Positions 1,305 through 15,727 of a DNA stretch of 41,723 nt are shown piece after piece (within the stretch, counting starts at the first letter, position 1; each line of letters opens with the position of its first letter). This stretch comes from a virus: positions 1-41,723 of the IMG/VR virus record IMGVR_UViG_3300043427_001714, one strand, 5' to 3'. A program made the position numbers and the translations under genes. The notes under the pieces were generated by a model. It worked only from the letters and a program-made list of their open reading frames with translations. It was not told where the DNA came from and ran no database searches.

Positions 1305-1526
1305 GTGAACCTGATCATGGTCGAGCACGACGACGTGCTGCTCGATGAGAGCTTGAGCTGGACGGCCAAAGGGCTGCTGGTGTTCGTGCTGGCGTGCGGC
1401 GCTACGGCGGAGCAGCCGATGACGCGTGAGCAGCTGTACCGCGGTGGTACGGAGCGCCAGGAGGAGATCGATGCAGCGCTGGAGGAGCTTCGACGCCGCG
1501 GCCTGCTGCTGGCGGAGGTGGAGTGA
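1305..1526 (+). CDS. Winged-helix phage replication-region protein
   Basis: 73 aa with a GTG start at 1305; GGGAGG lies about 10 bases upstream, supporting this start. The sequence DESLSWTAKGLLVFVL followed by TREQLYRGGTERQEEIDAALEELRRRGLL matches the helix-turn-helix plan seen at the N terminus of phage replisome-organiser proteins (a 'sleeping' helix, recognition helix, then an L-x-x-x-G-L wing). It overlaps the initiator gene by one base (TGATG), so the two are probably translated together and may act together at the origin. Confidence 0.65.
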   Translation: MNLIMVEHDDVLLDESLSWTAKGLLVFVLACGATAEQPMTREQLYRGGTERQEEIDAALEELRRRGLLLAEVE

Positions 1527-2371: not shown

Positions 2372-2769
2372 GAGCTTCGAGCTTTTCGCTCGGTCTGCGG
2401 ACCTTGAGCACCGTGACGCCGTACATGCGGACGATCACCGAGGACGAGCTGAAGTGCCTGTGGATGCTGCTGGACGAGACCGTGCGCGATGGCGTTACGG
2501 ACGAGCAGTGGTTCTGGGCGATCAAGATCCGGATGAGCGAGCGGTCTGAGGACCAGCAGCTGCCGATCCACTACCAGGTGCTGCGGCACCTGTTCCGGCT
2601 GGAGAACGGCCAGCCCAATTTCCAGTGGGGGTTGAAGGCAGACCTGGCGGAGCGGATGAGCTTGTGCAGCACCCATGCGGAGGTGCAGAAGCTGGAGCAG
2701 CAGGCGCAGCAACCGAACCGACCGCGATTGGAGGCTGGTGGTGATGCCCTGCGGCTTGGAGGCCGGTGA
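2368..2769 (+). CDS. Hypothetical early protein
   Basis: 133 aa from ATG at 2368, overlapping the initiator stop (ATGA). An alternative start is the internal ATG of MRTITEDELKCLW about 20 residues in; the leading residues are low in similarity to anything. The core (DELKCLWMLLDETVRDGVTDEQWFWAIKIRMSERSED) is helical and acidic; the C terminus is Gln-rich. No enzyme motif is visible. Its place between the initiator and RusA suggests a replication accessory role, but nothing in the protein itself proves it. Confidence 0.65.
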   Translation: MRASSFSLGLRTLSTVTPYMRTITEDELKCLWMLLDETVRDGVTDEQWFWAIKIRMSERSEDQQLPIHYQVLRHLFRLENGQPNFQWGLKADLAERMSLCSTHAEVQKLEQQAQQPNRPRLEAGGDALRLGGR

Positions 2770-3047
2770 TGGACTGCCAGGGGCTGGTGATGCTGCTGGT
2801 GAAGCTGGTGGCGCGTGGGCTGGTGCCACTGGAGGCGCTCGATGAACCGAGCCCGGAATGGCAGGACAACGCACGGACCGCTGGACCGTGGGCGGTGCAG
2901 CGCGAACACCGGAACCTGGCCAGGGAGTGGATTGCAGCGAACCCAGAGCCGTGGGCAGCGCTGCTGGAGCAGTACCGGCAGGAGCGTGAGGAACGTGGTC
3001 AGCAGCGTGTGGGCATGACCAGCTGGCTGGAGGATGCGCTGCCGTGA
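2769..3047 (+). CDS. Hypothetical early protein, 92 aa
   Basis: 92 aa from ATG at 2769 (a GTG three bases earlier is in frame and makes an MM start). One-base overlap with the previous stop. The N terminus (GLVMLLVKLVARGLVPL) is hydrophobic helical but too interrupted to call a membrane segment. The C-terminal half is rich in Trp, Glu and Arg (EHRNLAREWIAANPEPWAALLEQYRQERE) and likely alpha-helical. No family recognised. It overlaps the RusA gene by 4 bases (GTGA), so it belongs to the same transcription unit. Confidence 0.6.
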   Translation: MDCQGLVMLLVKLVARGLVPLEALDEPSPEWQDNARTAGPWAVQREHRNLAREWIAANPEPWAALLEQYRQEREERGQQRVGMTSWLEDALP

Positions 3048-3604
3048 ACGATCAGGGTCCAGAGCGCGATGGCGCTCAGCAGCGGTCAGGACCGCCTACA
3101 AGGCCCCTGGAGGGTGATGGGCGGGGGATTGTGCCCGCAGAGCTGCAGGACGGCCTTGTAGGGGCTCCTGATGCGATCACGTTCGTGGTGGTGGGCCTGC
3201 CGGCACCGCAGGGCAGCAAGCGCCATGTCGGGAACGGCGTGATGGTCGAGTCGAGCAAGGCGGTCAAGCCATGGCGGCAGGACGTGAAGCACGCGGCGCT
3301 GCTGAAGGTGCCGAACGGCTGGGATCGCAGTGGTGCGATGGCGTTGACGGTGAGCTTTCGGTTCCGCCGGCCAAAGGGTCATTACGGCACGAGGGGATTG
3401 AAGCCCTCAGCGCCGGTGTGGAACGTCAGCGGGCGCTGCGGCGATCTGTCGAAGCTGGTGCGGGCGACGGAGGACGCGCTGACGGGTGTGGTGTGGGATG
3501 ACGACCGGCAGGTGACGACGACGGCGGCGTGCAAACGGTGGTGCATTGGTGAAGAACCGGCAGGAGCGGTGATCACCGTGGTGCGGCTCAGGGGAAGGGT
3601 CTGA
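3044..3604 (+). CDS. rusA: RusA-family Holliday junction resolvase
   Basis: 186 aa, GTG start overlapping the upstream stop. The RusA fold begins near residue 45 (FVVVGLPAPQGSKR, where P-x-P-QGSKR is typical) and includes KPWRQDVKHAA, GDLSKLVRATEDALTGVVWDDDRQV and a terminal strand. RusA homodimers cut four-way junctions using acidic residues in the D-L-x-K-L and DD-x-Q-V motifs. Here the first motif reads GDLSKL, with Ser where E. coli RusA has its second Asp. The approximately 45-residue leader is Gly/Pro-rich and overlies an RNA-foldable inverted repeat (3095-3162), so the true start may be downstream. It probably resolves recombination or replication intermediates together with Bet and the exonuclease. 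Confidence 0.85.
   Translation: MNDQGPERDGAQQRSGPPTRPLEGDGRGIVPAELQDGLVGAPDAITFVVVGLPAPQGSKRHVGNGVMVESSKAVKPWRQDVKHAALLKVPNGWDRSGAMALTVSFRFRRPKGHYGTRGLKPSAPVWNVSGRCGDLSKLVRATEDALTGVVWDDDRQVTTTAACKRWCIGEEPAGAVITVVRLRGRV
3095..3162 (+). promoter_or_regulatory. Nested inverted repeat at the 5' end of rusA
   Basis: CCTACAAGGCC (3095-3105) and its exact complement GGCCTTGTAGG (3152-3162) enclose a second potential hairpin, GCGGG (3121-3125) with CCCGC (3134-3138). The stem lies before the conserved start of the RusA domain. It could be a leader structure controlling translation, or a palindromic protein-binding site. Confidence 0.4.
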
Positions 3605-3616
3605 ACCGGCGGGGGC

Positions 3617-3643
3617 TTGCGGTTGCGGTCCAGATCGTATAGC
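3617..3643 (+). promoter_or_regulatory. Promoter for the HNH-helicase cassette
   Basis: A -35-like TTGCGG (3617-3622, repeated at 3623-3628) and a -10-like TATAGC (3638-3643) are separated by 15 bp in a gene-free stretch after rusA. GCGGTCCAGA at the spacer resembles the operator half-site at 1093-1104. It would start a new transcript into the genes from 3741. Confidence 0.45.
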
Positions 3644-3661
3644 TTCGTTGGTGCGGAACAA

Positions 3662-3679
3662 GACGGGCTGCAACCCGTC
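3662..3679 (+). terminator. Leader hairpin between rusA and the next gene
   Basis: GACGGG and CCCGTC form a 6-bp stem around CTGCAA, without a T-run. The sequence after it (3685-3707) can form a second stem of TGGCC with GGCCA. It may be a weak terminator of the rusA transcript or a structured 5' leader of the downstream cassette. The interval 3605-3740 holds no credible gene. Confidence 0.35.
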
Positions 3680-3740
3680 CCGCTCCTGGCCACCGGTCAG
3701 GCCACCACTCGCGCCCGACCACTGGTTGGGCTGATTTTCC

Positions 3741-3929
3741 ATGACTTCCCCGAACTTTGCTGCGGGGGCGGCCTCTGATGCCCTGATCCGCATCACCAGT
3801 CCCAGCACACGCACCATTGCCCTCTCTGGCCGCGAGCTGCGCCGTGAGGCCGCTAGGCGAGCCAAGCGCGAAGCCAAGAGCCAGCGCACCATCAACGGCT
3901 TTCAGCCAGCAGGTGGCGCCAATGGCTGA
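3741..3929 (+). CDS. Small basic protein, function unknown
   Basis: 62 aa from ATG at 3741. The second half (SGRELRREAARRAKREAKSQRT) is a strongly basic helix, suggesting nucleic-acid contact or a short coiled coil. It overlaps the next gene by 8 bases. It is the first gene of the cassette that ends with ssb. No family recognised. Confidence 0.5.
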   Translation: MTSPNFAAGAASDALIRITSPSTRTIALSGRELRREAARRAKREAKSQRTINGFQPAGGANG

Positions 3930-4215
3930 CGCATCTGCCTTCCTGGTTGCTCGCGAGTTCGATCAGCTCAACCATTTGATGGAGGAGACCTTCGGCGACT
4001 GCTTTGGCGTTGATGAGATCACGCCTGAGATGCCAAAGGAAGAGATCGAGGCCAAGCTGCACCGCTTCGCTGCCTTTGCAGATCAAGCCATCCCCAAGAT
4101 CGAATGGATCCTGATCCACTCAGGTGACATTCTTTCGGCAGAGCAGCGATCAACGCTGTCGCTGTATCGCGGCCAGCTATGCGAAATGCTTGCCATTCGA
4201 ATGGAGTGGACCTGA
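3922..4215 (+). CDS. Acidic helical protein, function unknown
   Basis: 97 aa from ATG at 3922 (MADASAFLVAREF); the frame is open further upstream to 3817 but that part is out of frame with, and hidden inside, the 62-aa gene. The protein is acidic and predicted helical (DQLNHLMEETFGDCFGVDEI, KEEIEAKLHRFAAFADQAI, LIHSGDILSAEQRSTLSLYRGQL). It overlaps the start of the HNH-helicase gene by 37 bases. A partner or regulator of that enzyme is possible from position only. Confidence 0.6.
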   Translation: MADASAFLVAREFDQLNHLMEETFGDCFGVDEITPEMPKEEIEAKLHRFAAFADQAIPKIEWILIHSGDILSAEQRSTLSLYRGQLCEMLAIRMEWT

Positions 4216-6443
4216 AGCATAGAAACCGGCGGCTGATTCGTAGCCGTCGGGATCGTTATCGCATCTACCGATCAACAGGCGGCCTATGCGCTCGCTGCCT
4301 GTGTGACCTTGGCTCTTACTGGGAAGTCGACCACATCACTCGCTGGGCTGATGGTGGCGATTCTCGATGGAGCAACCTTCAACCCTTATGCAGGCGCTGT
4401 CACGTTCTTAAAACCAAGGAGGAAAACACGATGGGATGCCCACTACGCCTAGCCAACTGGGGAACCCAAGAAGAAGGCGATGGCAAGCTCCGTCGAGGAC
4501 ACAAGGAAGGCTGCCTAGTCGCTTGTGAGCGGTTCAGTCGGGGAGAGAAGTTCACCTCTGTGATCCTTCCGACCCGCTACGGCAAAAGCCATCTGGCTCG
4601 CTTCATCACCCTTGCCGGCACCTTCGGCATCGAAGCCCCAACAGGTGTCATTCAGCCGTTTGCAAGCGGCTCTCTGTTCCTCACCCATAGGGGCTTTCTA
4701 AGCCGTCAGATCATCGAGGCGGAGAAATGGCGGCAGTTCGCCAAGACCTTCGAGGTTCTGAACATGCCGACTGTTACGGCATGTGAGATCAAAAGTTCTC
4801 CGGCCAGACCGCAGAACATCTGTGAAAACGGCGAGATCTTTGCCGTGACCACGATCCCTATGCTCAGCAACAACATTGACGTGTTTGTTGACTGGGTAGA
4901 AATCAAAAGTCGCATTGGTCGTCCGCCGATCATCTTCGCTGACGAGGCTCAGTTCTTCGGGGATGGAGACGACAAGAAGTGGGGACCGGCGTTGATCGAG
5001 CTGGCCCAGGCTGGTGCTTTCATCATGCCGATGACAGCCACGCCCATGCGGGCAGACGGCAACACCATTCCCGGTTTCCAAAAGCTGGGCGCGATTACTA
5101 GCAGCGAGCTGTACGCCACCTATGAGGAGATCGGCGCTGTTCACCCTGAGCTGGGTGTCGTCTTTGACCAAGATGGCAATCCCATCATCTGGAACAGAAA
5201 GGACATCTGGGACAAGCGGGTTGAAACCGCTGAGCTTGATGCTCACGTCAAGGTTGAACGCCAAGAAGCGTGGTTCCACAAGTACCTCTGCCGTCTGCAG
5301 CGCATCCGCATTCAGATTCGGATGACCAACGGCGAACTGCTGCAGGATCTACCTCCGACCGTTCAGCGCAGGCAACTGGGGCGGGTCATACGTGATCCGG
5401 TTGTGGTCGAGGAGTTTCTGAACTGTGCCGAGGAGAACCTGAAAGAGATCCGCGCCAAGGTGCTGGCTAATGCCGGCGTCATCGTGTTCGTTGACTCCAC
5501 CCGTGACGGTGATAGCCATGAGCGAATGGTGGAACGGATGGTCAAGAAGCTCAAGCGGGTGCCAATCGTTGCCACTCAGGAATCTGGCAACGCCCAGGCT
5601 CAAATCGACCGCTTTATCGCTGGAGAGGGTGACTACCTGATCGTCAAGAACAGTGCCGGCGCTGGCCTCGACTGCGAGCGCCTCAAGGTCGGTGTTGACC
5701 TTTCATCCGTTCGGCAGTTCGCAAGCTGCGAGCAGCGTTGGAATCGGGTGGCCACACCAACCAACGGCAAGGGCGGACGGATCACGGTCGCCACCATGAT
5801 CACTCCCGCCGACATTTTCTCTGATGAGATCTTCGACGCTATCTACACCAAACAAGGTGGTGAGTGCAAAGAGAGCGTCAGCGAGCTGGCCCGGACTGAG
5901 TACGTGCCGAAGATTCAACGAGATAAACCGCTTGAGCCACCCATCTTTGTTGATGCCGTTGAGGACCATGACTACAAGGACACGGGCGGCCTTGAAGCTG
6001 CTGGAAGTGAGATCCAGCGGGGCAGGGCTCTCGTAGAGATCATGTCTCAAAGTGCCGGCTTCAACCTTGGGAACATCACCATTCCCGAGGGCGCTCAGTT
6101 GGCAACCATCCTCAGGGTGTCCGATGAGGCACTGGGCCTGACCGAAGAAGACAGCAACCCAGGCGACGACTTCTTCGAGACCAGCACCAAGATCGGCCAG
6201 CTTCGGGCGGACAATGCCCGGATGGCCAAGCGGCTTGCCCAAGCGCGCACCGGAGTTGTGGATTCCGATTCCATGCGCTCCACTTGGAGAGACATCTATC
6301 AAACGGCCAACCAGCTGATCGGTGCCCGCTTTGGTAGCCGCCACTTCATCACCGGCAAGGTCTACCGCGAGACCAACGACATTCAAGTTGTCGATGCGGT
6401 GAACTGTGCCATCAACCGCCTGTGGCAGGGGGTGGCGGCATGA
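4179..6443 (+). CDS. HNH endonuclease fused to SF2 (DEAD/DEAH-like) helicase
   Basis: 754 aa from ATG 4179; GTG at 4206, nearer the end of the upstream gene, is a plausible alternative. Residues 25-80 are an HNH zinc-finger nuclease: C37-x2-C40, D51-H52, N66 and C71-x2-C74-H75. From residue 115 an SF2 motor follows: motif I PTRYGKS (131-137), motif II DEAQ (255-258), motif III TATP (286-289), motif IV-like VIVFVDST near 428, motif V near 490, and motif VI QRWNRV (519-524). A C-terminal region of about 200 residues is unassigned. Both catalytic sets look intact. The phage encodes no other recognisable helicase, so this may be the replicative or recombination helicase; a role in superinfection exclusion is an alternative. 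It is followed by an ATGA-overlapping gene. Confidence 0.8.
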   Translation: MRNACHSNGVDLKHRNRRLIRSRRDRYRIYRSTGGLCARCLCDLGSYWEVDHITRWADGGDSRWSNLQPLCRRCHVLKTKEENTMGCPLRLANWGTQEEGDGKLRRGHKEGCLVACERFSRGEKFTSVILPTRYGKSHLARFITLAGTFGIEAPTGVIQPFASGSLFLTHRGFLSRQIIEAEKWRQFAKTFEVLNMPTVTACEIKSSPARPQNICENGEIFAVTTIPMLSNNIDVFVDWVEIKSRIGRPPIIFADEAQFFGDGDDKKWGPALIELAQAGAFIMPMTATPMRADGNTIPGFQKLGAITSSELYATYEEIGAVHPELGVVFDQDGNPIIWNRKDIWDKRVETAELDAHVKVERQEAWFHKYLCRLQRIRIQIRMTNGELLQDLPPTVQRRQLGRVIRDPVVVEEFLNCAEENLKEIRAKVLANAGVIVFVDSTRDGDSHERMVERMVKKLKRVPIVATQESGNAQAQIDRFIAGEGDYLIVKNSAGAGLDCERLKVGVDLSSVRQFASCEQRWNRVATPTNGKGGRITVATMITPADIFSDEIFDAIYTKQGGECKESVSELARTEYVPKIQRDKPLEPPIFVDAVEDHDYKDTGGLEAAGSEIQRGRALVEIMSQSAGFNLGNITIPEGAQLATILRVSDEALGLTEEDSNPGDDFFETSTKIGQLRADNARMAKRLAQARTGVVDSDSMRSTWRDIYQTANQLIGARFGSRHFITGKVYRETNDIQVVDAVNCAINRLWQGVAA

Positions 6444-7165
6444 GGACGCTGACCAAGGCCGAAGCCCGCGCCGGCTCAATGACCAAGGAAGAGGCGGGCG
6501 TTGCAACTGTTGAGCGTGCGCTGCAGCTAGAGGGCTCTGCCATTGCGCTGCTGTGCCGTGAGCAGATGAAGCGCGACGACTGGGAGGGCCAACTCAAGGC
6601 ATGGGCTGAGAACCGCCCGTGGGAGTTCCTGCCCGATGATGAGGATGCCAAGTACGGCAAGGTCTGGACGTGGACGGCCACGCGCCTGACGCTGAACGGA
6701 GAGCCTTTGACCAGAACCCGACTGGTCGCGTTGCTGGCTGGCCTGCTGGGCACAACGGCACTGGCAGAGGCCAGGATCCAGCGTTTTGAGGCTGATATCT
6801 CGCAGCCTCTTCACCCCGGCGCTGGCCGCCCCAAAAAGGCTTTAATTCCTGACCCGGGTAAGGAATTAATCAGATCAGGCGCAACCTCTGGAGCTTGGGG
6901 CAACGACGCTGGCTACCTCATGGCCCGCCTCCAGCGCCTCGACCCAGAGATCGCCAGCAAGATCGGCAAGGGCAAGCCGTACCGCTCCATCAACCACGCC
7001 GCCCAAGAGCTGGGCATCGTCGCCCGCCGGCAGCGTTACGAACTGAACCCCGAGGTTGACGTGAAGAACGCTGCTGATCGCATCGTCCATGTTCTCGGCA
7101 CCGACAAGGCGGCAGAACTGGCCGCTGCACTGACCCAACGCCTCACGAACAATGCCAACCCGTAA
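6440..7165 (+). CDS. Putative DNA-binding protein of the helicase cassette
   Basis: 241 aa from ATG at 6440, overlapping the helicase stop by 4 bases. N-terminal half helical and acidic, with WAENRPWEFLP and VWTWTATRLTLNG; then a Leu/Ala-rich stretch (LVALLAGLLGTTALA) too short and mixed to be a clear membrane segment. The C-terminal half contains GAGRPKK, an AT-hook-like or basic patch, and GYLMARLQRLDPEIASKI plus SINHAAQELGIVARRQRY, a helix-turn-helix-like segment that resembles proteins of cyanobacterial mobile elements. A regulatory or ParB/KorB-like DNA-binding role is inferred; no enzyme motif is seen. Confidence 0.6.
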   Translation: MRTLTKAEARAGSMTKEEAGVATVERALQLEGSAIALLCREQMKRDDWEGQLKAWAENRPWEFLPDDEDAKYGKVWTWTATRLTLNGEPLTRTRLVALLAGLLGTTALAEARIQRFEADISQPLHPGAGRPKKALIPDPGKELIRSGATSGAWGNDAGYLMARLQRLDPEIASKIGKGKPYRSINHAAQELGIVARRQRYELNPEVDVKNAADRIVHVLGTDKAAELAAALTQRLTNNANP

Positions 7166-7316
7166 AGACGACGGTCGCAAGCTGATCCAGCTGACCATGA
7201 AGCCTGATCTCTACGCCCAGGTCAAAGCGACCTGTGCCCAGCTTGATATCCCATGCACCGTATGGATGCGGGAGCTGATCAAGCGTGAACTCAACAACCC
7301 CACCATCACCCCATGA
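7152..7316 (+). CDS. 54-aa ribbon-helix-helix protein
   Basis: ATG at 7152, TGA at 7314-7316, reading MPTRKDDGRKLIQLT and ending KRELNNPTITP. The fold signature is a short strand (RKLIQLTM), helix 1 (KPDLYAQVKATCAQLD) and helix 2 (CTVWMRELIKREL), as in CopG/MetJ/Arc proteins. It overlaps the preceding gene by 14 bases and the ssb start by 4 bases (ATGA), which supports real translation. It is probably a DNA-binding autoregulator of the cassette. Confidence 0.65.
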   Translation: MPTRKDDGRKLIQLTMKPDLYAQVKATCAQLDIPCTVWMRELIKRELNNPTITP

Positions 7317-7678
7317 GCAACCTGATCACCGTCACGATCCTCGGCCGTGCTGGTCGTGATCCTGAGATTCGCTACCTCCAGTCCGGCACCCAGGTCGCGG
7401 CCTTCACCATTGCCGTTGATGGCTGGTCGAAGGATGACGCCAAACCCAATACCCACTGGTTTGATGTGAAGGTCTGGGGCAAGCAGGCCCAGGTCTGCGC
7501 TGATTACCTGCGCAAGGGTCAGCTGGTCGGATTGTCCGGCCGTCTGGAGCAGGAACGCTGGACCACGAAAACCGGCGAAAAACGCAGCAGGGTTGTGATC
7601 GTTGCCTCCACCGTGCAGCTGCTTACGCCCAAGGCGAAGGCTGATCCGCAGCCTGAACCAGAAGACCTGCCGTTCTGA
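7313..7678 (+). CDS. ssb: Single-stranded DNA-binding protein (SSB)
   Basis: 121 aa. It starts MSNLITVTILGRAGRDPEIRY and contains the OB-fold hallmarks GRAGRDPE, AAFTIAVDGW, WFDVKVWGKQAQ, YLRKGQLVGLSGRLEQERW and RVVIVAS. It ends in a short acidic linker and the tip DLPF, the SSB C-terminal peptide that recruits helicases, polymerase-clamp proteins and recombination factors. It is shorter than host SSB because the Gly/Pro linker is reduced. Translationally coupled to the 54-aa gene upstream (ATGA) and to the 24-aa membrane peptide downstream (TGATG). It would coat DNA for the HNH-helicase, Bet annealase and replication. Confidence 0.93.
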   Translation: MSNLITVTILGRAGRDPEIRYLQSGTQVAAFTIAVDGWSKDDAKPNTHWFDVKVWGKQAQVCADYLRKGQLVGLSGRLEQERWTTKTGEKRSRVVIVASTVQLLTPKAKADPQPEPEDLPF

Positions 7679-7876: not shown

Positions 7877-8407
7877 TTATATCTGCTCCGGTACGCCCAG
7901 GGTTTGACGTTTGATGCGCTGCGCCAGCTTCAGGTACTCGTCGTTGCTCATCGCGCCAGCCGTCACCAACTTCTCGGCCACCTCCAGCAGCGAGAGCGCA
8001 TCCTGCAGCTGCATCGCCCGATCGCAGATGTTGCGCCGCGGCCGGTACAGCGGCACCACCAGGGCCATCCCCGCCCGCAGACCGGCGATGCCCGTCACCG
8101 GCGCCTGCAGCTGACCGCTGTCGGAATAGGCGATCAACGCCGGCACATCACCGCCGCCAGCACGGCAGGTGAAACCGGAGGGGAACTGCAGCTCGATCTG
8201 ATCGCTCTTGGGCGCCCGCAGCTGATCAAGGGTTGAGCCGCCGGTGTTGGGCGAAATCCCCAGCACCGCCGCCGCAGGCGCCGCCGCCGCAGGCGCCGCG
8301 GGGACCTGCTGCGCTAGGGCTTGGCTGTAAAGAGCTTGCAGTACCTGAACATAGCCAGCAGCTGCGATTGCGAGCCACTTGCGGTAGGCGGATCTTTCCA
8401 CATGCAC
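7877..8407 (-). CDS. Exported protein of the fimbrial-like cassette
   Basis: 176 aa, ATG at 8407. After a basic N terminus (SAYRKW) comes a signal-peptide-like hydrophobic stretch ending SQALAQQ, then an Ala/Pro linker (residues about 35-47, encoded by a GC-rich repeat near 8265-8300), then a globular region with two cysteines (GFTCRAGGGD, RRNICDRAM) and a helical C terminus (LQDALSLLEVAEKLVTAGAM). It overlaps the upstream gene by 94 bases, unusually long, so a later start cannot be excluded. Likely periplasmic or surface-exposed. No enzyme motif. Expressed with the two upstream exported proteins. Confidence 0.65.
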   Translation of the reverse strand: MHVERSAYRKWLAIAAAGYVQVLQALYSQALAQQVPAAPAAAAPAAAVLGISPNTGGSTLDQLRAPKSDQIELQFPSGFTCRAGGGDVPALIAYSDSGQLQAPVTGIAGLRAGMALVVPLYRPRRNICDRAMQLQDALSLLEVAEKLVTAGAMSNDEYLKLAQRIKRQTLGVPEQI

Positions 8408-8733
8408 ACGGCCAATAACTGCTCGCCACTGATGGCCTTGCCCGGCACAATCACCAGCACGCGGTTCTTGACACCGGGCTGGGTGTTCAACCGCGCCGGC
8501 CGCAGCGATGTGCCCTCCACCGGTTCACCGATGCGGCCATCGGCCGACACGCGGAACACCTCGTACTGCAGACCAGGCACCGCCTGGCTGGTGCTCAACT
8601 GAGAGCGGACCACATAGTCGCCACCCGGAGTGGGGCGAACGGTCTTGGGAAGCTCGATGCCGTCAGCCAGGGCCGGCCCAGCGGCCAGCCCCAGCGACAG
8701 CACCGCCCCACTGAGGAGACGGCGCAACAGCAT
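8314..8733 (-). CDS. Exported protein resembling a single-domain pilus chaperone
   Basis: 139 aa. The signal peptide is clear: basic MLLRRLL, hydrophobic core, cleavage after PALA. The mature part is a predicted beta protein; RPARLNTQPGVKNRVLVIVPG followed by SGEQLLAVCMWKDPP echoes the PapD-type chaperone N-terminal domain, in which a Pro-rich strand, a G-x-x-x-R-V edge strand and an E-x-L-x-x-x strand hold fimbrial subunits. No second chaperone domain is present, so the call is tentative. The start overlaps the upstream stop by one base. It could assist folding or display of the 162-aa exported protein. Confidence 0.6.
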   Translation of the reverse strand: MLLRRLLSGAVLSLGLAAGPALADGIELPKTVRPTPGGDYVVRSQLSTSQAVPGLQYEVFRVSADGRIGEPVEGTSLRPARLNTQPGVKNRVLVIVPGKAISGEQLLAVCMWKDPPTASGSQSQLLAMFRYCKLFTAKP

Positions 8734-9221
8734 CAGTTGGGCGCAATGCAGTCAGTGGTCACCAGGGCGGTGTAGGTGCCCTGCGCCATGAGGGTGCCCT
8801 GGGGAGCCGAGACCGCCAGGGTCATCTGGAAGTCGTCGTTGGCGGTCAGGCCGTTGGCGTAGGGGATCACGGCAGAAGCACCGGCCTGGGTGGCGCTGGT
8901 CACCTGGGCGCCGTTGTTGACCTGCAGGCCAGCGTTCCAGGTGTAGTTGCCGGTGTTGGCGGGAGCAGCATTGATCTGCACCTGACGCAGCTGCAGCTGC
9001 ACGGCGCCGTTGCTGGCGAAGGAGAAGGCGTTGGTGGTGCCACTCAGCACGCCATCGACGTAGCTCATGGGGGTGCTGGCGTTGACCGGATCGGCCACCT
9101 GGCAGATGGCAGGGACGGTGCCGCTGAACTCACTGCTCTGGGAGGCGAGCTGGGCAGAAGCGGGGAGGCCGGCCAAGGCCAGCGTGAGGCCGCTAGCGGC
9201 GGCCGCAAAGGAACGAAGCAT
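8733..9221 (-). CDS. Secreted fimbrial/spore-coat-U-like protein
   Basis: 162 aa. Signal peptide with cleavage after PASA (residue about 24), then an all-beta, Ala/Thr/Asn/Gln-rich protein with Cys near residue 40 (PAICQVADP) and Cys near 158 (TTDCIAPN) placed to form one disulfide. The pattern (FSGTVPAICQ at the start, G-T-Y-T-A-L-V-T-T at the end) resembles fimbrial-type and spore-coat-protein-U-like beta-sandwich subunits common in cyanobacteria. First gene of a three-gene minus-strand unit with a promoter at 9262-9290. Not a virion gene by position; a surface protein made by lysogens is the likeliest role. Confidence 0.7.
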   Translation of the reverse strand: MLRSFAAAASGLTLALAGLPASAQLASQSSEFSGTVPAICQVADPVNASTPMSYVDGVLSGTTNAFSFASNGAVQLQLRQVQINAAPANTGNYTWNAGLQVNNGAQVTSATQAGASAVIPYANGLTANDDFQMTLAVSAPQGTLMAQGTYTALVTTDCIAPN

Positions 9222-9261
9222 GGATCCGCCGTGCGGGAAACAGCTCCAAGTTGCAGCACCC

Positions 9262-9290
9262 GCAATAGAATGCAGTTAAGAATATGTGAA
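9262..9290 (-). promoter_or_regulatory. Promoter of the exported-protein cassette
   Basis: Read on the minus strand, TTCACA (9290-9285) is a near-consensus -35 and TATTGC (9267-9262) a weak -10, 17 bp apart. The element sits in a small AT-rich island (about 9265-9297) in otherwise GC-rich DNA, about 40 bases before the start codon at 9221. A promoter of its own is expected for a gene set expressed from the prophage. Confidence 0.45.
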
Positions 9291-9302
9291 GTTTTGCCAA
9301 GT

Positions 9303-9597: not shown

Positions 9598-9598
9598 A

Positions 9599-9634
9599 GG
9601 CCGCCAGCAGGGTCTTCCCATCCTGCTGGCGGCC
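9599..9634. terminator. Strong 13-bp stem-loop terminator
   Basis: GGCCGCCAGCAGG (9599-9611) and CCTGCTGGCGGCC (9622-9634) form a perfect 13-bp stem with a 10-base loop directly after the stop codon at 9597. There is no U-run on the plus strand; on the minus strand the stem is followed by TTTACTG. It probably separates the 59-aa gene from the integrase region. Confidence 0.6.
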
Positions 9635-9746
9635 TGTCGCTGCGGGATCTGGGTGGATGTCAATCCTGACCATGACGATCAGTACCGCCGCGCCCAGTGT
9701 CACGACGGCTTGCTGAGCCTACTGATCTGAGTCGTGACCGGCGGAT

Positions 9747-9782: not shown

Positions 9783-9992
9783 ATGGACCTGGGCTCCGCT
9801 GTGCGCGCCATCACCGCTCGATACGACGCCGCTACAGCCTCAGGGCAATGGCCGTCGGCACCTGTCTGGTTATCTCAATCGATGCCACCAGCTGCTGCAG
9901 CATCGTGCGCACCTCGTCGTAGGTCGCAAGGTCAGCCCACCGTGGATCGGCGATCTTCTCCAGCAGCTGCTGATCAACGCTCGGCTGCTTGA
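9783..9992 (+). CDS. Short open frame antisense to the integrase 3' end
   Basis: 69 aa from ATG at 9783 after an operator-like element. The first 35 residues (MDLGSAVRAITARYDAATAS and so on) look like ordinary protein; the remainder, which overlaps the integrase gene on the other strand, is Ala/Pro/Arg-rich like an antisense shadow. It may be a short real gene whose tail was overwritten, or a gene interrupted by an ancestral recombination event next to the integrase. Kept at low confidence because the regulatory element in front is convincing. Confidence 0.3.
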   Translation: MDLGSAVRAITARYDAATASGQWPSAPVWLSQSMPPAAAASCAPRRRSQGQPTVDRRSSPAAADQRSAA

Positions 9993-11112
9993 GCACCGCC
10001 ACCAGCCGGTGACGCTTGGCCTCGATTACCGGCAGCAGGTCGGGATCATCAAGGGCTTCCAGCTTGGTGATCTGCTGGCGTAGCTCCACCGCTTCCGGCG
10101 GTTCATCGTTACGGGCTGCCGCGGCCAGCTGTGATGCAGCACCTGTCGCGAGCTGCTGCAGGGCGAAGGCGATGATCACCGCCTCCCTGGTGCCCTTGTA
10201 GAGCTGGCTGCAGGTTTCACCGCTGCAGCGCAACGATGGGATGGTCCGGCCGCCGATGTACTTGAGGGTGTTGCCGCACTCTGCGCAACGGCAGAGGCTG
10301 GTGAGCGCCCTGGGGATGGTGGTGGCGTTCGCACCCCATCGTTTGCGGTTTGATTCGGTGATCGCCAGGAAGGATGCGAAGTCTGCATGGCTGAGCACCG
10401 GCTGATGACGATCCCAGAGGATCTCCCTGAACTGGTGGTTTGGCAGTTGGTGGTAGCCGACGCCGCCGCGGAGGGTGGGGTTGAGGAGCCAGCTGCGGAC
10501 GCCACGAACGGAACGGAACGGCACTGCCGGCAACGCCTTGAGGGATGGGAGCATCCGCCAGCTGTTGGCCTTGAGGGTGGCGATGAACCGCTCAGCGATC
10601 GGGTACTGATCAGGGTGCGGCTCGAAGGCGGTGCGATCGGCGTTGAGGCGATACCCCCAGCAGGGCTTGCGCATGGGCTTCCCGAGTTTGCGGCCTTCGT
10701 TCAACCCGCGGAGGATGCGCTGGCTGATGCGCATACTCTCGCCTTGGGCGAGGCTGCCCTTGAGGCGCGTGAGCAGCAGATCCTCCGGTGTCGTGAGGGT
10801 GAGGCGACCGTCCTGCAGGGTGCGGACGACGGTGCGGTGCTGATCGCAGAGCGCGATGAAGGCATCGGATTCTGCGGCGTCACGGCCGAGGCGTGAGAAC
10901 TCGGTAGCGACGACCTGAGCGACGGTGCCGGCCTGGATGAGGGAACGGAGCTGCTGGTAGTTCTCGCGGGCGGTGGAGAGTCCAGACTCGATATCAGAGA
11001 GGATGAGGTCGCAGCCCTCGCGTTCCAGGGCAGAGCGCTGGTGTGGGAGAGCAGCGAGCTGATCACCGGAGGCGGTGGAGACGCGTGCGTAACCGATGCG
11101 GAGCCTGTCCAT
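9832..11112 (-). CDS. int: Large serine recombinase (phage integrase)
   Basis: 426 aa from ATG at 11112. The resolvase/invertase catalytic domain spans residues 1-150: GYARVST with nucleophile S12, then QRSALEREGCDLILSDIESG, EFSRLGRD and SQRILRGLNEGRKLGKP. The recombinase domain follows (PCWGYRLN, PDQYPIAERFIATL, SWLLNPTLRGGVGY), then a zinc ribbon (C-x-C-x2-C ending at ECGNTLKYIGG, with LRCSGETC) and a coiled-coil C terminus. It is somewhat shorter than most such integrases and resembles the XisF type of cyanobacteria. It recombines attP with a host attB without host factors; excision needs a directionality factor, not identified here. An inverted repeat 23 bp upstream is a likely attP. Confidence 0.9.
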   Translation of the reverse strand: MDRLRIGYARVSTASGDQLAALPHQRSALEREGCDLILSDIESGLSTARENYQQLRSLIQAGTVAQVVATEFSRLGRDAAESDAFIALCDQHRTVVRTLQDGRLTLTTPEDLLLTRLKGSLAQGESMRISQRILRGLNEGRKLGKPMRKPCWGYRLNADRTAFEPHPDQYPIAERFIATLKANSWRMLPSLKALPAVPFRSVRGVRSWLLNPTLRGGVGYHQLPNHQFREILWDRHQPVLSHADFASFLAITESNRKRWGANATTIPRALTSLCRCAECGNTLKYIGGRTIPSLRCSGETCSQLYKGTREAVIIAFALQQLATGAASQLAAAARNDEPPEAVELRQQITKLEALDDPDLLPVIEAKRHRLVAVLKQPSVDQQLLEKIADPRWADLATYDEVRTMLQQLVASIEITRQVPTAIALRL

Positions 11113-11134
11113 CGCCCTCGTGCTCTAGAGGGAA

Positions 11135-11182
11135 TGTAACCCGTATGGACCCGTTGCTCGCGGTAGGTCCATACGGGTTACA
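11135..11182. other. attP: 48-bp inverted repeat, candidate attP or int operator
   Basis: TGTAACCCGTATGGACC (11135-11151) and its perfect complement GGTCCATACGGGTTACA (11166-11182) flank 14 bases; the symmetry centre is the dinucleotide TC at 11158-11159. Serine-integrase attP sites are about 50 bp, dyad-symmetric and next to int, and this fits in size, symmetry and place. The same palindrome could instead be an operator controlling int and the divergent gene. Confidence 0.55.
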
Positions 11183-11228
11183 ATGAAGGAGTGGGGGGAA
11201 CCCACGGAACATGGACAACTGAAGAACC

Positions 11229-11285
11229 GCGGGAGGCGTCCCGCTCCGGTGGCCCTCACCCAGGCACCACTGAGTCCCGCCTGGG
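11229..11285 (+). promoter_or_regulatory. Structured leader upstream of the 59-aa coiled-coil gene
   Basis: GCGGGA/TCCCGC (11229-11244) and CCCAGGC/GCCTGGG (11259-11265, 11279-11285) form consecutive stems in the region between the inverted repeat 11135-11182 and the ATG at 11309. An open frame from ATG 11183 runs through in phase with the downstream gene, but its residues look unlike protein (Pro/Arg/Gly-rich). A 5' untranslated regulatory structure is more likely. Confidence 0.4.
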
Positions 11286-11308
11286 GGCTCACCCACACGG
11301 AGAACCAC

Positions 11309-11488
11309 ATGGACGCCACCACCCGCACCCTCCTCGCTGAGATCGAGGCGGACCGTCAGGAGACAGCAGCGCTGCTCGCTGAACTGGACACCGCGATCGA
11401 GGCGTATGGACGCTCCATCGAGCAGGGACTGGCCCTGGCCGCAGAGATGCGCGACCTGGCCGCCCAGCTGGAGGAGTGGTCCTGCTGA
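11309..11488 (+). CDS. 59-aa coiled-coil protein
   Basis: ATG at 11309 with GGAGA 7 bases upstream, which decides this start over the in-frame ATG at 11183. The protein (MDATTRTLLAEIEADRQETA and onward) is one long acidic heptad helix with Leu/Ala at a and d positions, ending EEWSC. It lies divergent from the integrase. Its size and position fit an excision factor (recombination directionality factor), which for serine integrases often has no recognisable family and can be coiled-coil, but this is positional inference only. Confidence 0.55.
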   Translation: MDATTRTLLAEIEADRQETAALLAELDTAIEAYGRSIEQGLALAAEMRDLAAQLEEWSC

Positions 11489-11495
11489 GGGACAC

Positions 11496-11511
11496 GCCCC
11501 CTTCTGGGGGC
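11496..11511 (+). terminator. Hairpin after the coiled-coil gene
   Basis: GCCCCC and GGGGGC form a 6-bp stem with a TTCT loop 8 bases after the stop codon. No U-run follows. The interval 11512-11730 contains no convincing gene; a Pro/Arg-rich frame ending at 11700 was judged unreliable. Confidence 0.45.
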
Positions 11512-11730
11512 ACTGAATCACCGGCCACAAACCAGATAGAGCGCCCTGGTCCCTCTCCGCCCGACACGACAGGCCCCGGCAACAGATCACACGACCGAGT
11601 CACCAATCGAGATCAACCGCCCTGGATAAGGCTGCATCGCCGGTTGGCCCGGCACCACCACTCACGAACCGAGCAGGCCGTGCGCGCCGCTCGCTTCTGA
11701 TCCCATCGCCCGGCACTGGCCGGTTGAACC

Positions 11731-11922
11731 ATGTCCATCACCTGCATCGCCGCCTGGGCGGCTGTCCTGCTGCTGTTCCCGCTGCTGCTGCTCCTCTGGG
11801 CCACGGAGTCACGCGGGCAGCGCATCCGCCGCTGGCGGTCCTACGGCCACACCCAGAAGGCCATCGCCCAGCGGCTTGGCATCAGCACCTACCAAGTCCG
11901 CAAGGCGCTCGCCACCGGCTGA
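11731..11922 (+). CDS. Membrane-anchored helix-turn-helix peptide
   Basis: 63 aa from ATG at 11731. Residues 5-24 are one continuous hydrophobic segment rich in Leu (LLLFPLLLLLW); residues 28-37 are strongly basic (RGQRIRRWR), which places the C terminus in the cytoplasm; residues 40-60 (HTQKAIAQRLGISTYQVRKA) are a textbook helix-turn-helix like the C-terminal DNA-binding tail of resolvases and NarL-type regulators. The product should be a DNA-binding unit tethered to the inner or thylakoid membrane. It sits between the integrase region and the cyAbrB homologue. No known family recognised for the combination. Confidence 0.6.
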   Translation: MSITCIAAWAAVLLLFPLLLLLWATESRGQRIRRWRSYGHTQKAIAQRLGISTYQVRKALATG

Positions 11923-12056
11923 CGAAAAAGGCGGAGAGGAAACGGCCGCGCGCAGCCGCGTCATCTCCGCCGTCACCCTATCCACCGCATCACTGCTGCA
12001 CATCCGCTTCAGATCCGATCGCGATCTCTAAGCTGAAGGCGGTCAAGATTGGCAGC

Positions 12057-12440
12057 ATGGTTGAAGATCAACCCCGTCGGCTTGAAGGGCAGCAGCTACT
12101 TGCTGCGTTGAAGCAGCTCGGCCCTGATGCAACACGATCTGATCAGGCGTATCACGCGGGCTATTACAGCGAAGCCGACGATGGCCGCATCCGGTATCAC
12201 TACGCGGCGTTGTACCAAGCGATCAGCGAAGCGACCGGCGTGATCCGCGATCGTCGTAGTGGTGTCGCCAACTGCCGGCGGCTGCCGTGGCAGACCACGG
12301 TGCTCACCACTGGCGCCTGCCTGGTGGGCCACCGGTATATGCAGGAGCTGGGGCTGGAGCCTGGTGATCAGGTGACGATCAAGCGCCGTGGCCGCAAGCT
12401 GGTGCTCGAACCGGCCGAGCCGTACGAGATCGCTGCCTAG
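12057..12440 (+). CDS. cyAbrB-like transcription regulator
   Basis: 127 aa from ATG at 12057; the longer open frame back to 11724 overlaps the membrane-HTH gene in another phase and is rejected. Two parts match the cyanobacterial AbrB plan: an N-terminal domain (LLAALKQLGPDATRSDQAYHAGYYSE, DGRIRYHYAALYQAISEATG) and a C-terminal swapped-hairpin DNA-binding domain (VLTTGACLVGHRYMQELGLE, PGDQVTIKRRGRKLVLEP). cyAbrB proteins are near-universal in cyanobacteria and tune carbon, nitrogen and stress genes. A phage copy could reprogramme the host or control lysogeny. Preceded by TCTAAGCT and followed by a strong terminator. Confidence 0.75.
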   Translation: MVEDQPRRLEGQQLLAALKQLGPDATRSDQAYHAGYYSEADDGRIRYHYAALYQAISEATGVIRDRRSGVANCRRLPWQTTVLTTGACLVGHRYMQELGLEPGDQVTIKRRGRKLVLEPAEPYEIAA

Positions 12441-12462
12441 GTTGCAGGGGGATGAGGATGGA

Positions 12463-12488
12463 GGCGGCAGGGGTGCCGCCTTTTTTTT
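12463..12488 (+). terminator. Rho-independent terminator
   Basis: GGCGGCA (12463-12469), loop GGGG, TGCCGCC (12474-12480), then eight T residues (12481-12488). This is the best canonical terminator in the window and ends the transcript carrying the cyAbrB-like gene. Confidence 0.92.
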
Positions 12489-12505
12489 GAATCAATGCGG
12501 GTTCC

Positions 12506-12541
12506 CGTCTTAGTCCAGACCGCGGATCGGTCTAAGGTGCG
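12506..12541 (+). promoter_or_regulatory. Operator/promoter of the probable repressor gene
   Basis: CGTCTTAGTCCAGACC (12506-12521) matches the 1066-1081 element position by position (GTCT-n-AGTC-n-AGACC). A second half-site CGGTCTAAGG follows at 12529-12538, right before the ATG at 12545. The leader would be extremely short. Because the element precedes the gene for an HTH protein, autoregulation is likely. Confidence 0.55.
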
Positions 12542-12544
12542 GTC

Positions 12545-13300
12545 ATGGAAGCCCACAACCACCCGCGCTTTGTCGAGGGTCGCAACCGCCTCGCACGCGT
12601 GGTCCGGTTGCTGCTGGCGGAAAACCAGCTGAGCCATAGCGATCTAGAAACCTTCTATCGCTGGGCTTGCCCCGACACCCCCACCTGGCTGAACAAGAGC
12701 CAGGTGAGCACGCTGCGCAACGCCAAGCTGCCGAAGCCCGGCCCGCAGCTGTTCGATGCCCTGTCGCAGATCAACCTACGGCTCGCCAAGCTGGCCGGCA
12801 GCAATGCCGATCTGGTGCAGGAGCTGGATGATCGCGGGCCACTGCCGCCGGACCTGAAGCACCTGGCCGGCACCGCCTTCTTCATGGTCAACCCCCAGAC
12901 CCAGCAGCCGATGGAAGTCGGTGATCTGTTCCGGCTGTACGTCGGCCGGCTGGAGATGAAGGACCAAGCCTGGGATGACCTGCCGGCGGTTTATACCGAC
13001 GATGAAGCTGCGCAGATCAGCTACCGGCTGGCGCTCTGGTTTCAGAAGACCGCTGCGGCCCAGGACCGTGTAGCCATGGAGTTCAGGCCGCAGTTCATCG
13101 AGGCGTATCCGTACGCAGCGGATGACCGGCGGCGGGAACGGCTATGGCGGGTGCTGATGGGCACCGAGACGCTGAACGCTAAGGAGCTGAGTGAAGAGCG
13201 GGAAGCGCTCCGCTTCACGGTAGGGAAGCTGGAGCGCGGCACAGCTCTTACGGTGCGGGAGTTTGATCGGTGGTGCCATGGGGCGTTGCCCCAACCTTGA
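12545..13300 (+). CDS. Probable phage repressor-type HTH protein
   Basis: 251 aa from ATG at 12545. The first 75 residues fit an HTH-containing domain (LARVVRLLLAENQLSHSDLETFYRW, then KSQVSTLRNAKLPKPGPQLFDAL), with helix spacing like Cro/CI-type readers, though longer than usual. The remainder is helical and charged (LFRLYVGRLEMKDQAWDD, RRRERLWRVLMGTETLNAKEL), ending in LTVREFDRWCHG. No Ser-Lys cleavage domain of LexA/CI type is visible. It is monocistronic, with the repeat operator in front of it, and lies between the integrase and the recombination genes, the usual place for a lysogeny repressor. Function inferred from context. Confidence 0.6.
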   Translation: MEAHNHPRFVEGRNRLARVVRLLLAENQLSHSDLETFYRWACPDTPTWLNKSQVSTLRNAKLPKPGPQLFDALSQINLRLAKLAGSNADLVQELDDRGPLPPDLKHLAGTAFFMVNPQTQQPMEVGDLFRLYVGRLEMKDQAWDDLPAVYTDDEAAQISYRLALWFQKTAAAQDRVAMEFRPQFIEAYPYAADDRRRERLWRVLMGTETLNAKELSEEREALRFTVGKLERGTALTVREFDRWCHGALPQP

Positions 13301-13421
13301 TCGAGTGCTGGCCGCGGCATTCCACGGTGATCTCGATATCGCTGCCGATGGCGTGACGCATAGCGATCAGCCGCTCGAAGAGCCGCTGGTGTTCAGCCTG
13401 TGATTCCACGATGATCCGCAT
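13248..13421 (-). CDS. Small antisense-overlapping protein
   Basis: 57 aa, ATG at 13421, TAA at 13250-13248. The sequence starts MRIIVESQAEHQRLFERLIA and continues MRHAIGSDIEITVECRGQHS, with a good alternation of helix and strand; the last 17 residues are antisense to the end of the repressor-type gene. It is the only minus-strand gene between the integrase and 18 kb, so it may be expressed in lysogeny, or its transcript may act as antisense RNA. No family recognised. Confidence 0.45.
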   Translation of the reverse strand: MRIIVESQAEHQRLFERLIAMRHAIGSDIEITVECRGQHSIKVGATPHGTTDQTPAP

Positions 13422-13452
13422 AAACGCTTAGCGCCGGGTTCCTTCAACGTAT

Positions 13453-13466
13453 GGCGCCGCGGCGCC
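13453..13466. repeat. 14-bp perfect palindrome
   Basis: GGCGCCGCGGCGCC reads identically on both strands and lies in the gene-free interval 13422-13547 between the minus-strand 57-aa gene and bet. It could be an operator or a bidirectional hairpin. Confidence 0.4.
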
Positions 13467-13498
13467 TTGGGCTTTAGCCACGACCAGAAGCGATCGTA

Positions 13499-13541
13499 TC
13501 TTAGACCAAGGCCGCCAAACCAGAAGATCGAGACTAAGATC
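13499..13541 (+). promoter_or_regulatory. Promoter/operator of the bet operon
   Basis: TCTTAGACCAAGGCC (13499-13513) resembles the TCTTAGAC element at 15720-15727 and the CTTAGTCCAGACC element at 12509-12521. GAGACTAAGATC (13530-13541) provides a reversed copy and a -10-like TAAGAT close before the ATG at 13548. The placement just upstream of the recombination genes suggests that this unit is controlled by the same protein as the other early units. Confidence 0.5.
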
Positions 13542-13547
13542 AGCGGC

Positions 13548-14489
13548 ATGGGTCGGGGCGGTCCCGGCCTGGCTTCTGCCATGTCTTCCATTCAGCGCCG
13601 CGGGCCTGGTGCCCAGGCCACACCTGTCCCTGGCCTGTCGCCAGAGGAATGGGATGTACTGCGTAACAGCGTTTGCAAGGGCTTCTCCGATACGGAGGCC
13701 AAGGTGTTCGGCTTCCGGTGCCAAGCGCTGGGGTTGAGCCCGCTGACCGGCCAGATCACTGCCTTCAAGCAGGGCGGTGGTGTGGTGCCGATCGTGACCA
13801 TCGACGGCTACCGCGCGATCGCAGCCAAGATCGATCCGGGGTATGTGGTCGAGATCGAATACCTCACCGCTGATGGGTGGGTCGATTGGATCCCAGAAGC
13901 GGAGCCGGCCAGTCAAGCCAGGGCGAAGGTCTGGCGCACTGGTGCGGAGCGTCCGGTCACCAAAGCCGTGAGCCGTAAGGAGTTCGCCGGCAACAGCGGC
14001 CCGTGGCGCTCAATGCCGCATCACATGCTGGCGAAGGTGGCTGAATCCCATGCCCTGCGGATGGCCTTCCCGCAGGGTCTTAGCGGCACCTACTCCGCTG
14101 ATGAGATGGCCAATCCGGTGCAGGCGGCAGAAGCACCTGCTGCGGCATTACCCAAGCCGGCCAGTACCGCTGCCACCGCCAGCAAGCAGCAGCTGGAGCA
14201 GCTGGCCACCGCCATGAACCGTGTATTGGGCGATATTGGCCGCGAAGCATTCCTGGCCAATATCACCGCCGCCTTCGGTGTGCAGACGCTGCAGCAGCTG
14301 CCGGCGGAGCATATCGACAACGTGCTGCGGAGCCTGGGCAATAAGGACCGTGTGGCGGCCTGGAACGAAGGGCTGGATGGTCACGGCAATCAGGTGGTGA
14401 GCGATGAGCGGATCGCTGAACTGCAGGCCTTGAGCCAGGCCGCTGCGGTGGAGGCGGAGTACATCGAGGAAGCGGAGGCCGCCGCATGA
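13548..14489 (+). CDS. bet: Bet-family single-strand annealing protein
   Basis: 313 aa from ATG at 13548; ATG at 13581 is also possible, while the frame upstream to 13467 runs through the operator and is rejected. The core matches lambda Bet: LRNSVCKGFSDTEAKVFGF, CQALGLSPLTGQITAFKQGG, VVPIVTIDGYRAIAAKIDPG, RKEFAGNSGPWRSMPHHML and HALRMAFPQGLSGTYSADEM. The C terminus (about 195-313) is an Ala/Gln-rich helical tail like that used to bind SSB and exonuclease partners. It anneals complementary single strands in phage recombination, presumably with the RecE-like exonuclease at 15990 and the phage SSB. Overlaps the next gene (ATGA). Confidence 0.88.
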   Translation: MGRGGPGLASAMSSIQRRGPGAQATPVPGLSPEEWDVLRNSVCKGFSDTEAKVFGFRCQALGLSPLTGQITAFKQGGGVVPIVTIDGYRAIAAKIDPGYVVEIEYLTADGWVDWIPEAEPASQARAKVWRTGAERPVTKAVSRKEFAGNSGPWRSMPHHMLAKVAESHALRMAFPQGLSGTYSADEMANPVQAAEAPAAALPKPASTAATASKQQLEQLATAMNRVLGDIGREAFLANITAAFGVQTLQQLPAEHIDNVLRSLGNKDRVAAWNEGLDGHGNQVVSDERIAELQALSQAAAVEAEYIEEAEAAA

Positions 14490-14737
14490 CCCGCTCCGTC
14501 AATGTGCTTTCCCCGGCCACGGCGCTGGGGTTGCTGGTGCAGCTGGAGCAGCGCTACAGCTTGCCGGGCTTCGTCTCCACCGATGCGTTGGTGGAGTTCT
14601 GGGGTGTCACCTCCAGCACCGTCTGCCGGCGGCTGGCGGCGATGGAAGTCCATGGCCATGCCTACGTGCGATCGACCAGCCCTAAGGGGTATTGGATCGA
14701 TCCGATCGTGCGCACCCATCCCGAACTGGAGGTGTGA
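14486..14737 (+). CDS. Small winged-helix DNA-binding protein
   Basis: 83 aa, start overlapping the bet stop by 4 bases. The segment FVSTDALVEFWGVTSSTVCRRLAAMEVHGHAYVRS is a helix-turn-helix with a wing-like tail, as in small phage regulators that recognise DNA through V-T-S-S-T-V-C-R-R. The N terminus (SPATALGLLVQLEQRY) is a helix likely used for dimerisation. It may modulate the recombination operon; no closer family recognised. Confidence 0.6.
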   Translation: MTRSVNVLSPATALGLLVQLEQRYSLPGFVSTDALVEFWGVTSSTVCRRLAAMEVHGHAYVRSTSPKGYWIDPIVRTHPELEV

Positions 14738-14738
14738 G

Positions 14739-15350
14739 ATGGGGAAGCGGGGATGGACACGGCATCTCTGGACGAAACGTGAGGAGGAGATGCTGTTCAG
14801 CCTGGCCGGCGACATGCCGTTCTCCAGGATCAAGCAGGTCTACGACAGCTGGTGCAATACCCACGGGCTGCCGATCCGCACCGATCGTGCGCTGCGCCGC
14901 CGGCTGGAGGACAACGGCTACAGCTTGCGCAGCGTCGGTGAATGGCTCACCACCGCCATGGTGGCGGAGCTGATCGGCACCAGCACGCTGGCGATTGCAC
15001 GGTGGTGCAACAACGGTTGGGTGACGGTGCATCGTGAAGGGCACCGGCGATACATCAGCCGCAAGAGCCTGCGGAAGCTGGCGCGGCAGCGGCCGATCCT
15101 CTTCAGCGGCGCCAACCGCGACAACCTCTTCCAGCTGCTGGAAGACGATGAGCTGGTGACCAGCATCCGGCAGCAGTACCCGACACGGGCCTGGGCGCAG
15201 CCGGTGAAGGTGCGCTGCATTCAAACCGGCAAGGTCTACCCCAGCATCAAGTCAGCCGCGCTGGCGGTGTACGTGACACCGCAGGCGATACGGCACGCCA
15301 TCAACCGCGGTTACCGCACCGCCGAATACAACTGGGAGCGTGTGGCATGA
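14739..15350 (+). CDS. NUMOD1-like multi-HTH DNA-binding protein without nuclease
   Basis: 203 aa from ATG at 14739. Three DNA-binding-like segments are visible: an N-terminal SANT/Myb-like helix set (WTKREEEMLFSLAGDMPFSRIKQVYD), a MerR/excisionase-like helix-turn-helix (MVAELIGTSTLAIARWCNNG, HRRYISRKSLRKLARQ), and at about 158-203 a module with the NUMOD1 pattern (VRCIQTGKVYPSIKSAALAV, AIRHAINRGYRTAEYNWERV). NUMOD1 modules normally accompany HNH or GIY-YIG homing nucleases, but no catalytic motif is present here, so it may be a domesticated targeting half or a regulator. Overlaps the next gene (ATGA). Confidence 0.65.
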   Translation: MGKRGWTRHLWTKREEEMLFSLAGDMPFSRIKQVYDSWCNTHGLPIRTDRALRRRLEDNGYSLRSVGEWLTTAMVAELIGTSTLAIARWCNNGWVTVHREGHRRYISRKSLRKLARQRPILFSGANRDNLFQLLEDDELVTSIRQQYPTRAWAQPVKVRCIQTGKVYPSIKSAALAVYVTPQAIRHAINRGYRTAEYNWERVA

Positions 15351-15676
15351 ATCGCCTGTCACCGATCGAAGCCCGGCGGCTCTGGTACAGCCTGCCCGGC
15401 GATGACGATCAACGGATCGTGGCGTTCGCCAATGCCATCGCTGATCGGCTGCATCGCGGGCCGCGGCCGCGGCAGCGGATCGCCTTAGACGCCCTTGACC
15501 TTGGCATGCTCTGGTACGGCGCCCTGCGGCGTGCCGGGTACGAGTACGTGGATGAGATCGCACCGCTGACGTACGCGGACCTGAAGACGATCAAGCACAT
15601 CGGCCACCACGGCGCGATGACGATCATGGCCAAGGTCCGGCGGGTGCTGTATCCGCCTGCACACGCCTGCCCTTAA
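15347..15676 (+). CDS. Helix-hairpin-helix protein resembling RNA polymerase alpha CTD
   Basis: 109 aa. Residues about 55-105 (ALDLGMLWYGALRRAGYEYV, DEIAPLTYADLKTIKHIGHH, GAMTIMAKVRRVL) follow the alpha-subunit C-terminal domain pattern: helix, R-A-G-x-x-x-V-x-E-I/L, L-T-x-x-D-L-x-x-I-x-x-I/L-G, then a basic helix. That domain binds UP elements and activators. The N-terminal half (SPIEARRLWYSLPGDDDQRI) is helical. A free alpha-CTD-like protein could bind promoter DNA or intercept transcription factors; a plain HhH DNA-binding protein is the conservative reading. Last gene of the bet unit. Confidence 0.55.
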   Translation: MNRLSPIEARRLWYSLPGDDDQRIVAFANAIADRLHRGPRPRQRIALDALDLGMLWYGALRRAGYEYVDEIAPLTYADLKTIKHIGHHGAMTIMAKVRRVLYPPAHACP

Positions 15677-15677
15677 G

Positions 15678-15727
15678 AGGTTGCGGTCTAAACCAAGACC
15701 GCTACGCTTTGGCCGTTGGTCTTAGAC
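15678..15727 (+). promoter_or_regulatory. Promoter with operator, start of the exonuclease-sigma unit
   Basis: AGGTTGCGGTCT, five bases, AAGACCG (15678-15701) duplicates the element at 1059-1082. A -35-like TTGCGG (15681-15686) and -10-like TACGCT (15703-15708) are 16 bp apart, enclosing the inverted repeat; TCTTAGAC (15720-15727) lies near the expected start point. The next start codon is at 15732. Two units with the same promoter-operator are likely switched together. Confidence 0.65.

Follow-up and report, generated by a model that had tools for sequence, protein, structure and literature searches.

By sequence comparison, three minus-strand genes lying beside the integrase gene of a temperate picocyanobacterial phage form a distant but clear member of a nameless three-gene operon family of picocyanobacteria, and they are probably lysogenic-conversion cargo, a phage-borne copy of the host operon. 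We analysed a 41,723-base virus record from IMG/VR (here the window), in which the trio is found to the left of the integrase gene. Little is understood about how picocyanobacteria live as lysogens, and hardly any conversion genes are known from them. A phage-borne copy of a host operon of surface type would be a concrete candidate for such genes, and infection may alter the surface of the host cell.

The trio and its position in the phage genome

The sequence-only reading of this DNA had described three genes at positions 7877-9290, all with signal-peptide-like starts, and on both points it was right. The open reading frames are present, profiles made from host relatives single out all three and, judged by eye, the three products have signal-peptide-like starts (MLRSFAAAASGLTLALAGLPASA; MLLRRLLSGAVLSLGLAAGPALA; ...RKWLAIAAAGYVQVLQALYSQALA), with N-termini that are basic, then hydrophobic, and have A-x-A at the end. 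The features of the region are as follows.

7313-7678, plus strand: phage SSB gene, left neighbour of the trio, 198 nt away
7877-8407, minus strand: gene 3, 176 aa, GTG start, export-type product without a known relative
8314-8407, minus strand: 94 nt over which gene 3 overlaps gene 2 out of frame, phase 2, in which the 3' end of gene 2 holds, in the other frame, the coding for the gene 3 signal peptide
8314-8733, minus strand: gene 2, 139 aa, export-type, single-domain product, like the PapD chaperone N-domain at family level
8733-9221, minus strand: gene 1, 162 aa, export-type, beta-rich product, SCPU/fimbrial-subunit-like at family level
9256-9295, minus strand: candidate promoter region ahead of gene 1, an AT-rich stretch (62.5 % AT)
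9598-9635, minus strand: hairpin with a perfect 14-bp stem followed by UUUA, terminator-like (z -5.5), between the integrase gene and the trio
9677-9738, strand not applicable: interleaved 8-bp inverted repeats just beyond the integrase stop, candidate attP
9832-11112, minus strand: large serine recombinase/integrase gene, XisF-like, approximately 610 nt to the right of gene 1

The start of gene 2 and the stop of gene 1 have one base in common. The only cysteines in the window proteins are six that are conserved in the respective families, two per protein: C40 and C158 in gene 1 (C158 being four residues before the C-terminus), C110 and C132 in gene 2, and C81 and C128 in gene 3. Neither Pfam nor PHROGs provided a useful match for any of the three window products, which are predicted from their N-termini to be exported.

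The window carries head, portal, terminase, tail, endolysin, recombination, SSB and sigma-factor genes, and the closest relatives of the integrase are from Cyanobium MAGs (57 %) and IMG/VR contigs (up to 72 %). The plus strand encodes the early genes (1523-7678), so the trio does lie opposite to them, as had been stated, and it is also beside the integrase gene, though a strong hairpin that would insulate the trio from that gene lies between. The trio was also said to have its own AT-rich promoter. The AT-rich patch is there, and its AT content is reached by 0.26 % of the 40-mers in the window, but no match to the sigma-70 consensus was found upstream of gene 1.

Three other features of these phages were recorded. 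A sigma-70-type factor (regions 1.2, 2 and 3; PHROG sigma factor, E 2.5e-55) is encoded at 17099-18061 (plus strand), has homologs near the integrase on related contigs L005-L009, and may drive the phage's own promoters. The 754-aa protein encoded at 4179-6443 (plus strand) begins with an HNH endonuclease domain, to which an apparent helicase-type body is fused. When positions 8000-15800 of contig L006 are set against 9800-18000 of the window, the integrase gene together with a divergent small HTH gene is inverted relative to the sigma-factor and structural genes.

Membership in a picocyanobacterial operon family

The first relative detected was one of gene 2 (E 3e-5, in a search of 201 host-family genomes), and the ORFs adjoining it are genes 1 and 3, arranged in the same order as in the window. 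With a gene 3 profile, 36 of the 400 host-family genomes in the sample (9 %) gave matches and, in the loci read around these matches, gene 2 is upstream in all and gene 1 in nearly all. An even draw of 386 genomes from across the phylum yielded only three hits, all of them in genomes already found by the host-family searches. Hence, within the limits of the sample, the operon family looks to be confined to picocyanobacteria. No match to it was found in Pfam, PHROGs or NCBIfam.

Because the window and host copies are just 13-29 % identical, membership was examined using family profiles that were built leaving the window out and were then run on the 244 ORFs of the window. The best ORF for each profile was the corresponding trio gene, namely gene 1 (E 7.6e-15, 49.5 bits; second 3.9, shuffled at most 8.9), gene 2 (E 4.9e-6, 20.4 bits; second 2.9, shuffled at most 4.8) and gene 3 (E 1.4e-14, 48.0 bits; second 3.3, shuffled at most 8.4), and the next-best window ORFs had E values of 0.75 or worse. 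Gene order, strand and the cysteine pair in each protein are common to the window trio and the host operons. The overlap of genes 2 and 3 is 70-130 nt long and in phase 2 in the host loci examined, with the exception of one clade (L041, L042, L048 and L049) where it is mostly lost. The cyanobacterial phage context that had been proposed for the DNA is supported, and the relatives of the trio are operons on host chromosomes. The identity of the window gene 3 to host copies is 25 % at most, and no trio gene exceeds 29 % identity to the host copies read. The window copy forms a long branch, the placement of which is unsure, and this argues against a recent transfer from any sampled genome.

The chromosomal copies adjoin housekeeping genes (yebC, argS, a glycosyltransferase gene) in unrelated neighbourhoods, indicating that the three genes are the unit, and in one clade (L054, L055, L056 and L062) nothing but the three genes is common to all four loci. 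Operons of the marine type (L018, L019 and L060) have tandem copies of gene 1 upstream and two further genes downstream (L018 6512-8539, L019 10086-12092, L060 9858-11742). In L018, the downstream pair consists of an AraC-type HTH regulator and a protein with a weak porin-like match (PF13557, below the cut-off), and the latter, if it is an outer-membrane barrel, could supply the marine-type clade with the exit pore that is missing. In one host clade, a second single-domain gene resembling gene 2 lies upstream of gene 1 (L051 45-494, L053 2865-3308).

Remote likeness to fimbrial subunits and chaperones

The whole trio had been read as fimbrial-like, with one subunit of the fimbrial/spore-coat-U type and one single-domain pilus chaperone. 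For genes 1 and 2 this holds remotely and at the level of the families, but the window proteins taken alone gave no SCPU signal (gene 1) and no PapD signal (gene 2), and no test revealed a fimbrial likeness for gene 3. Gene 3 resembles nothing known, and a weak SHOCT-like tail is found in some of its relatives.

When the gene 1 family was compared with cyanobacterial SCPU proteins (Synechocystis' own not among them), hhalign gave 92 % over the full length with the signal peptides included and 12.6 % with the signal peptide removed. The signal peptides thus overstate the SCPU match, and hhalign was repeated on the mature parts with column shuffles. The mature part of the gene 1 family scored 24.0 over 123 columns, compared to a maximum of 16.2 in 100 column shuffles. 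The SCPU Pfam model (PF05229) matched neither gene 1 nor any of 21 relatives. An NCBIfam match of gene 1 to the UpsA pilin (E 1.8e-4) was rejected as compositional, as its 21.6 bits fall short of the cut-off (130) and, among 21 family members, no other gave it. If the two gene 1 cysteines are paired, they would join the first and last strands, unlike in the usual pilin, and this may preclude polymerisation by donor-strand exchange.

Relatives of gene 2 match PapD_N weakly (2 of 23, best E 0.0032). Compared as a family with the N-domain of PapD-type chaperones from E. coli K-12 and cyanobacteria, gene 2 gave hhalign values of 46-55 % (P ~1e-4), in register, and its mature part scored 26.9, with a maximum of 15.8 in 100 column shuffles. 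At 139 aa in the window and 116-160 aa in relatives, the gene 2 product falls short of the PapD build of two Ig domains (~220-260 aa).

Crossed family pairs and reversed profiles gave background scores only, and the SCPU and PapD likenesses, which are remote and belong to the families, appear weak but specific. They gain credibility from the gene order, as SCPU genes of other cyanobacteria have a PapD-type chaperone gene after them, the order seen for genes 1 and 2. Single-sequence AlphaFold models (pLDDT 52 and 41) were too poor to use, and a structure search was uninformative.

The three proteins might instead make up a non-fimbrial complex of the periplasm or outer membrane (e.g. envelope-binding or stress proteins), the SCPU and PapD likenesses reflecting nothing more than shared beta-sandwich folds. 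The single proteins match no model, the hhalign probabilities for the mature parts are only 4-38 % and no usher was found in 24 module-bearing genomes, all of which fit this explanation. However, two independent likenesses exceed all shuffles while crossed pairs stay at background, and the gene order is one known from cccS-cccP, and we consider a non-fimbrial complex rather unlikely. A full chaperone-usher system was also considered and rejected. In the 24 module-bearing genomes neither the usher (PF00577, 0 of 24) nor the PapD_N model found a match, with the E. coli controls positive for both, and a true chaperone-usher pilus is therefore unlikely on sequence grounds.

The trio as probable conversion cargo

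The window is the one viral carrier of the trio that was found. The trio is in none of the related phage contigs, and in contigs L008 and L009 the gap of approximately 2 kb between the SSB and integrase genes contains other small ORFs in its absence. Direct relatives were likewise not detected when viral contigs were queried with the three window proteins and the three family alignments, when INPHARED phages were queried with the trio DNA and the protein of gene 2, when plasmids were queried with the protein of gene 1, or when genome contigs were scanned for peptide patterns of gene 2. The trio has several features of a moron, as it is accessory, absent from related phages, next to the integrase gene and apparently a transcription unit of its own.

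The related contigs L002 and L004 end 145-229 nt beyond the integrase gene, consistent with the inverted repeats at 9677-9738 being attP, though aligning the related contigs did not pinpoint the exact site. If these repeats are attP, integration would put the trio at the end of the prophage opposite to the integrase gene and beside host DNA, which is a usual site of conversion genes. Such a location is also where host DNA is picked up by chance through imprecise excision, and the single viral carrier would fit a passenger, or a contig contaminant, without function in the phage. We consider this highly improbable, since the reading frames are intact and the signal peptides and cysteines have been kept despite identities of no more than 29 % to the host copies read, so that the genes appear old and selected. 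Phage genes also flank the trio on both sides, and as related phage contigs have genes of either flank as well, contamination with host DNA or a chimeric contig was judged unlikely.

As a special case of conversion cargo, the trio could be a superinfection-exclusion or receptor-masking set, in which the secreted gene 1 product, or a complex containing it, blocks adsorption of related phages. The integrase-side location and putative own transcription unit are typical of such cargo, and signal peptides make a surface location expected. But the same operon is found beside housekeeping genes on host chromosomes, suggesting that it originally served the host, and no known phage family is linked to the trio by sequence. 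A set dedicated to exclusion is thus quite unlikely.

As conversion cargo more generally, the trio would give lysogens an additional small protein, either secreted or on the surface. It would be expressed from the prophage, and its products would form a complex located at the surface, with some effect on, and benefit to, the lysogen. All three proteins would pass through the Sec system and acquire one disulfide each. In the periplasm, the gene 2 product, which consists of one Ig-like domain akin to the PapD N-domain, would hold the SCPU-like product of gene 1, and the gene 3 product would be a small partner in the usher's stead, serving as an anchor or an assembly or release factor. The gene 1 product would finally be secreted or placed on the outer surface, and adhesion, phage receptor access or grazing of the lysogen may be changed. 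We tentatively suggest, while thinking it less likely than conversion cargo as such, that the trio is an undescribed, usher-independent system of three components by which picocyanobacteria display a pilin-like protein on their surface, that its third protein replaces the usher, and that temperate phages spread the system and so convert host surfaces. The host operon is a new target for studies of how usher-less cyanobacteria display pilin-like proteins.

Comparison with known systems

Type 1 fimbriae (FimA-FimC-FimD) share with the trio a remote likeness between gene 2 and the chaperone N-domain (54.8 %, P 1.2e-4) and another between the gene 1 N-terminus and pilins (14.9 %), but the trio is without an usher, a second chaperone domain and an adhesin gene.

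In the CccS-CccP system (slr1667-slr1668, usher homolog Slr0019) of Synechocystis PCC 6803, a gene for an exported SCPU subunit is likewise followed by one for a PapD-like chaperone. Export of CccS is reported to depend on CccP, and the operon is without an usher (PMC4390875). The trio differs in that its chaperone-like protein has one domain and 139 aa, whereas cyanobacterial chaperones linked to SCPU proteins are ~260 aa, in that gene 1 is below the SCPU cut-offs and has another cysteine pair, in that no usher was found in trio-bearing genomes, and in the presence of a third, overlapping gene.

Relative to the picocyanobacterial operon, the window copy is phage-borne and on a long branch, and the marine-type operons have extra genes. 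In operons such as L012, L013, L029 and L051, gene order, sizes, cysteines and the gene 2/3 overlap correspond to those of the window.
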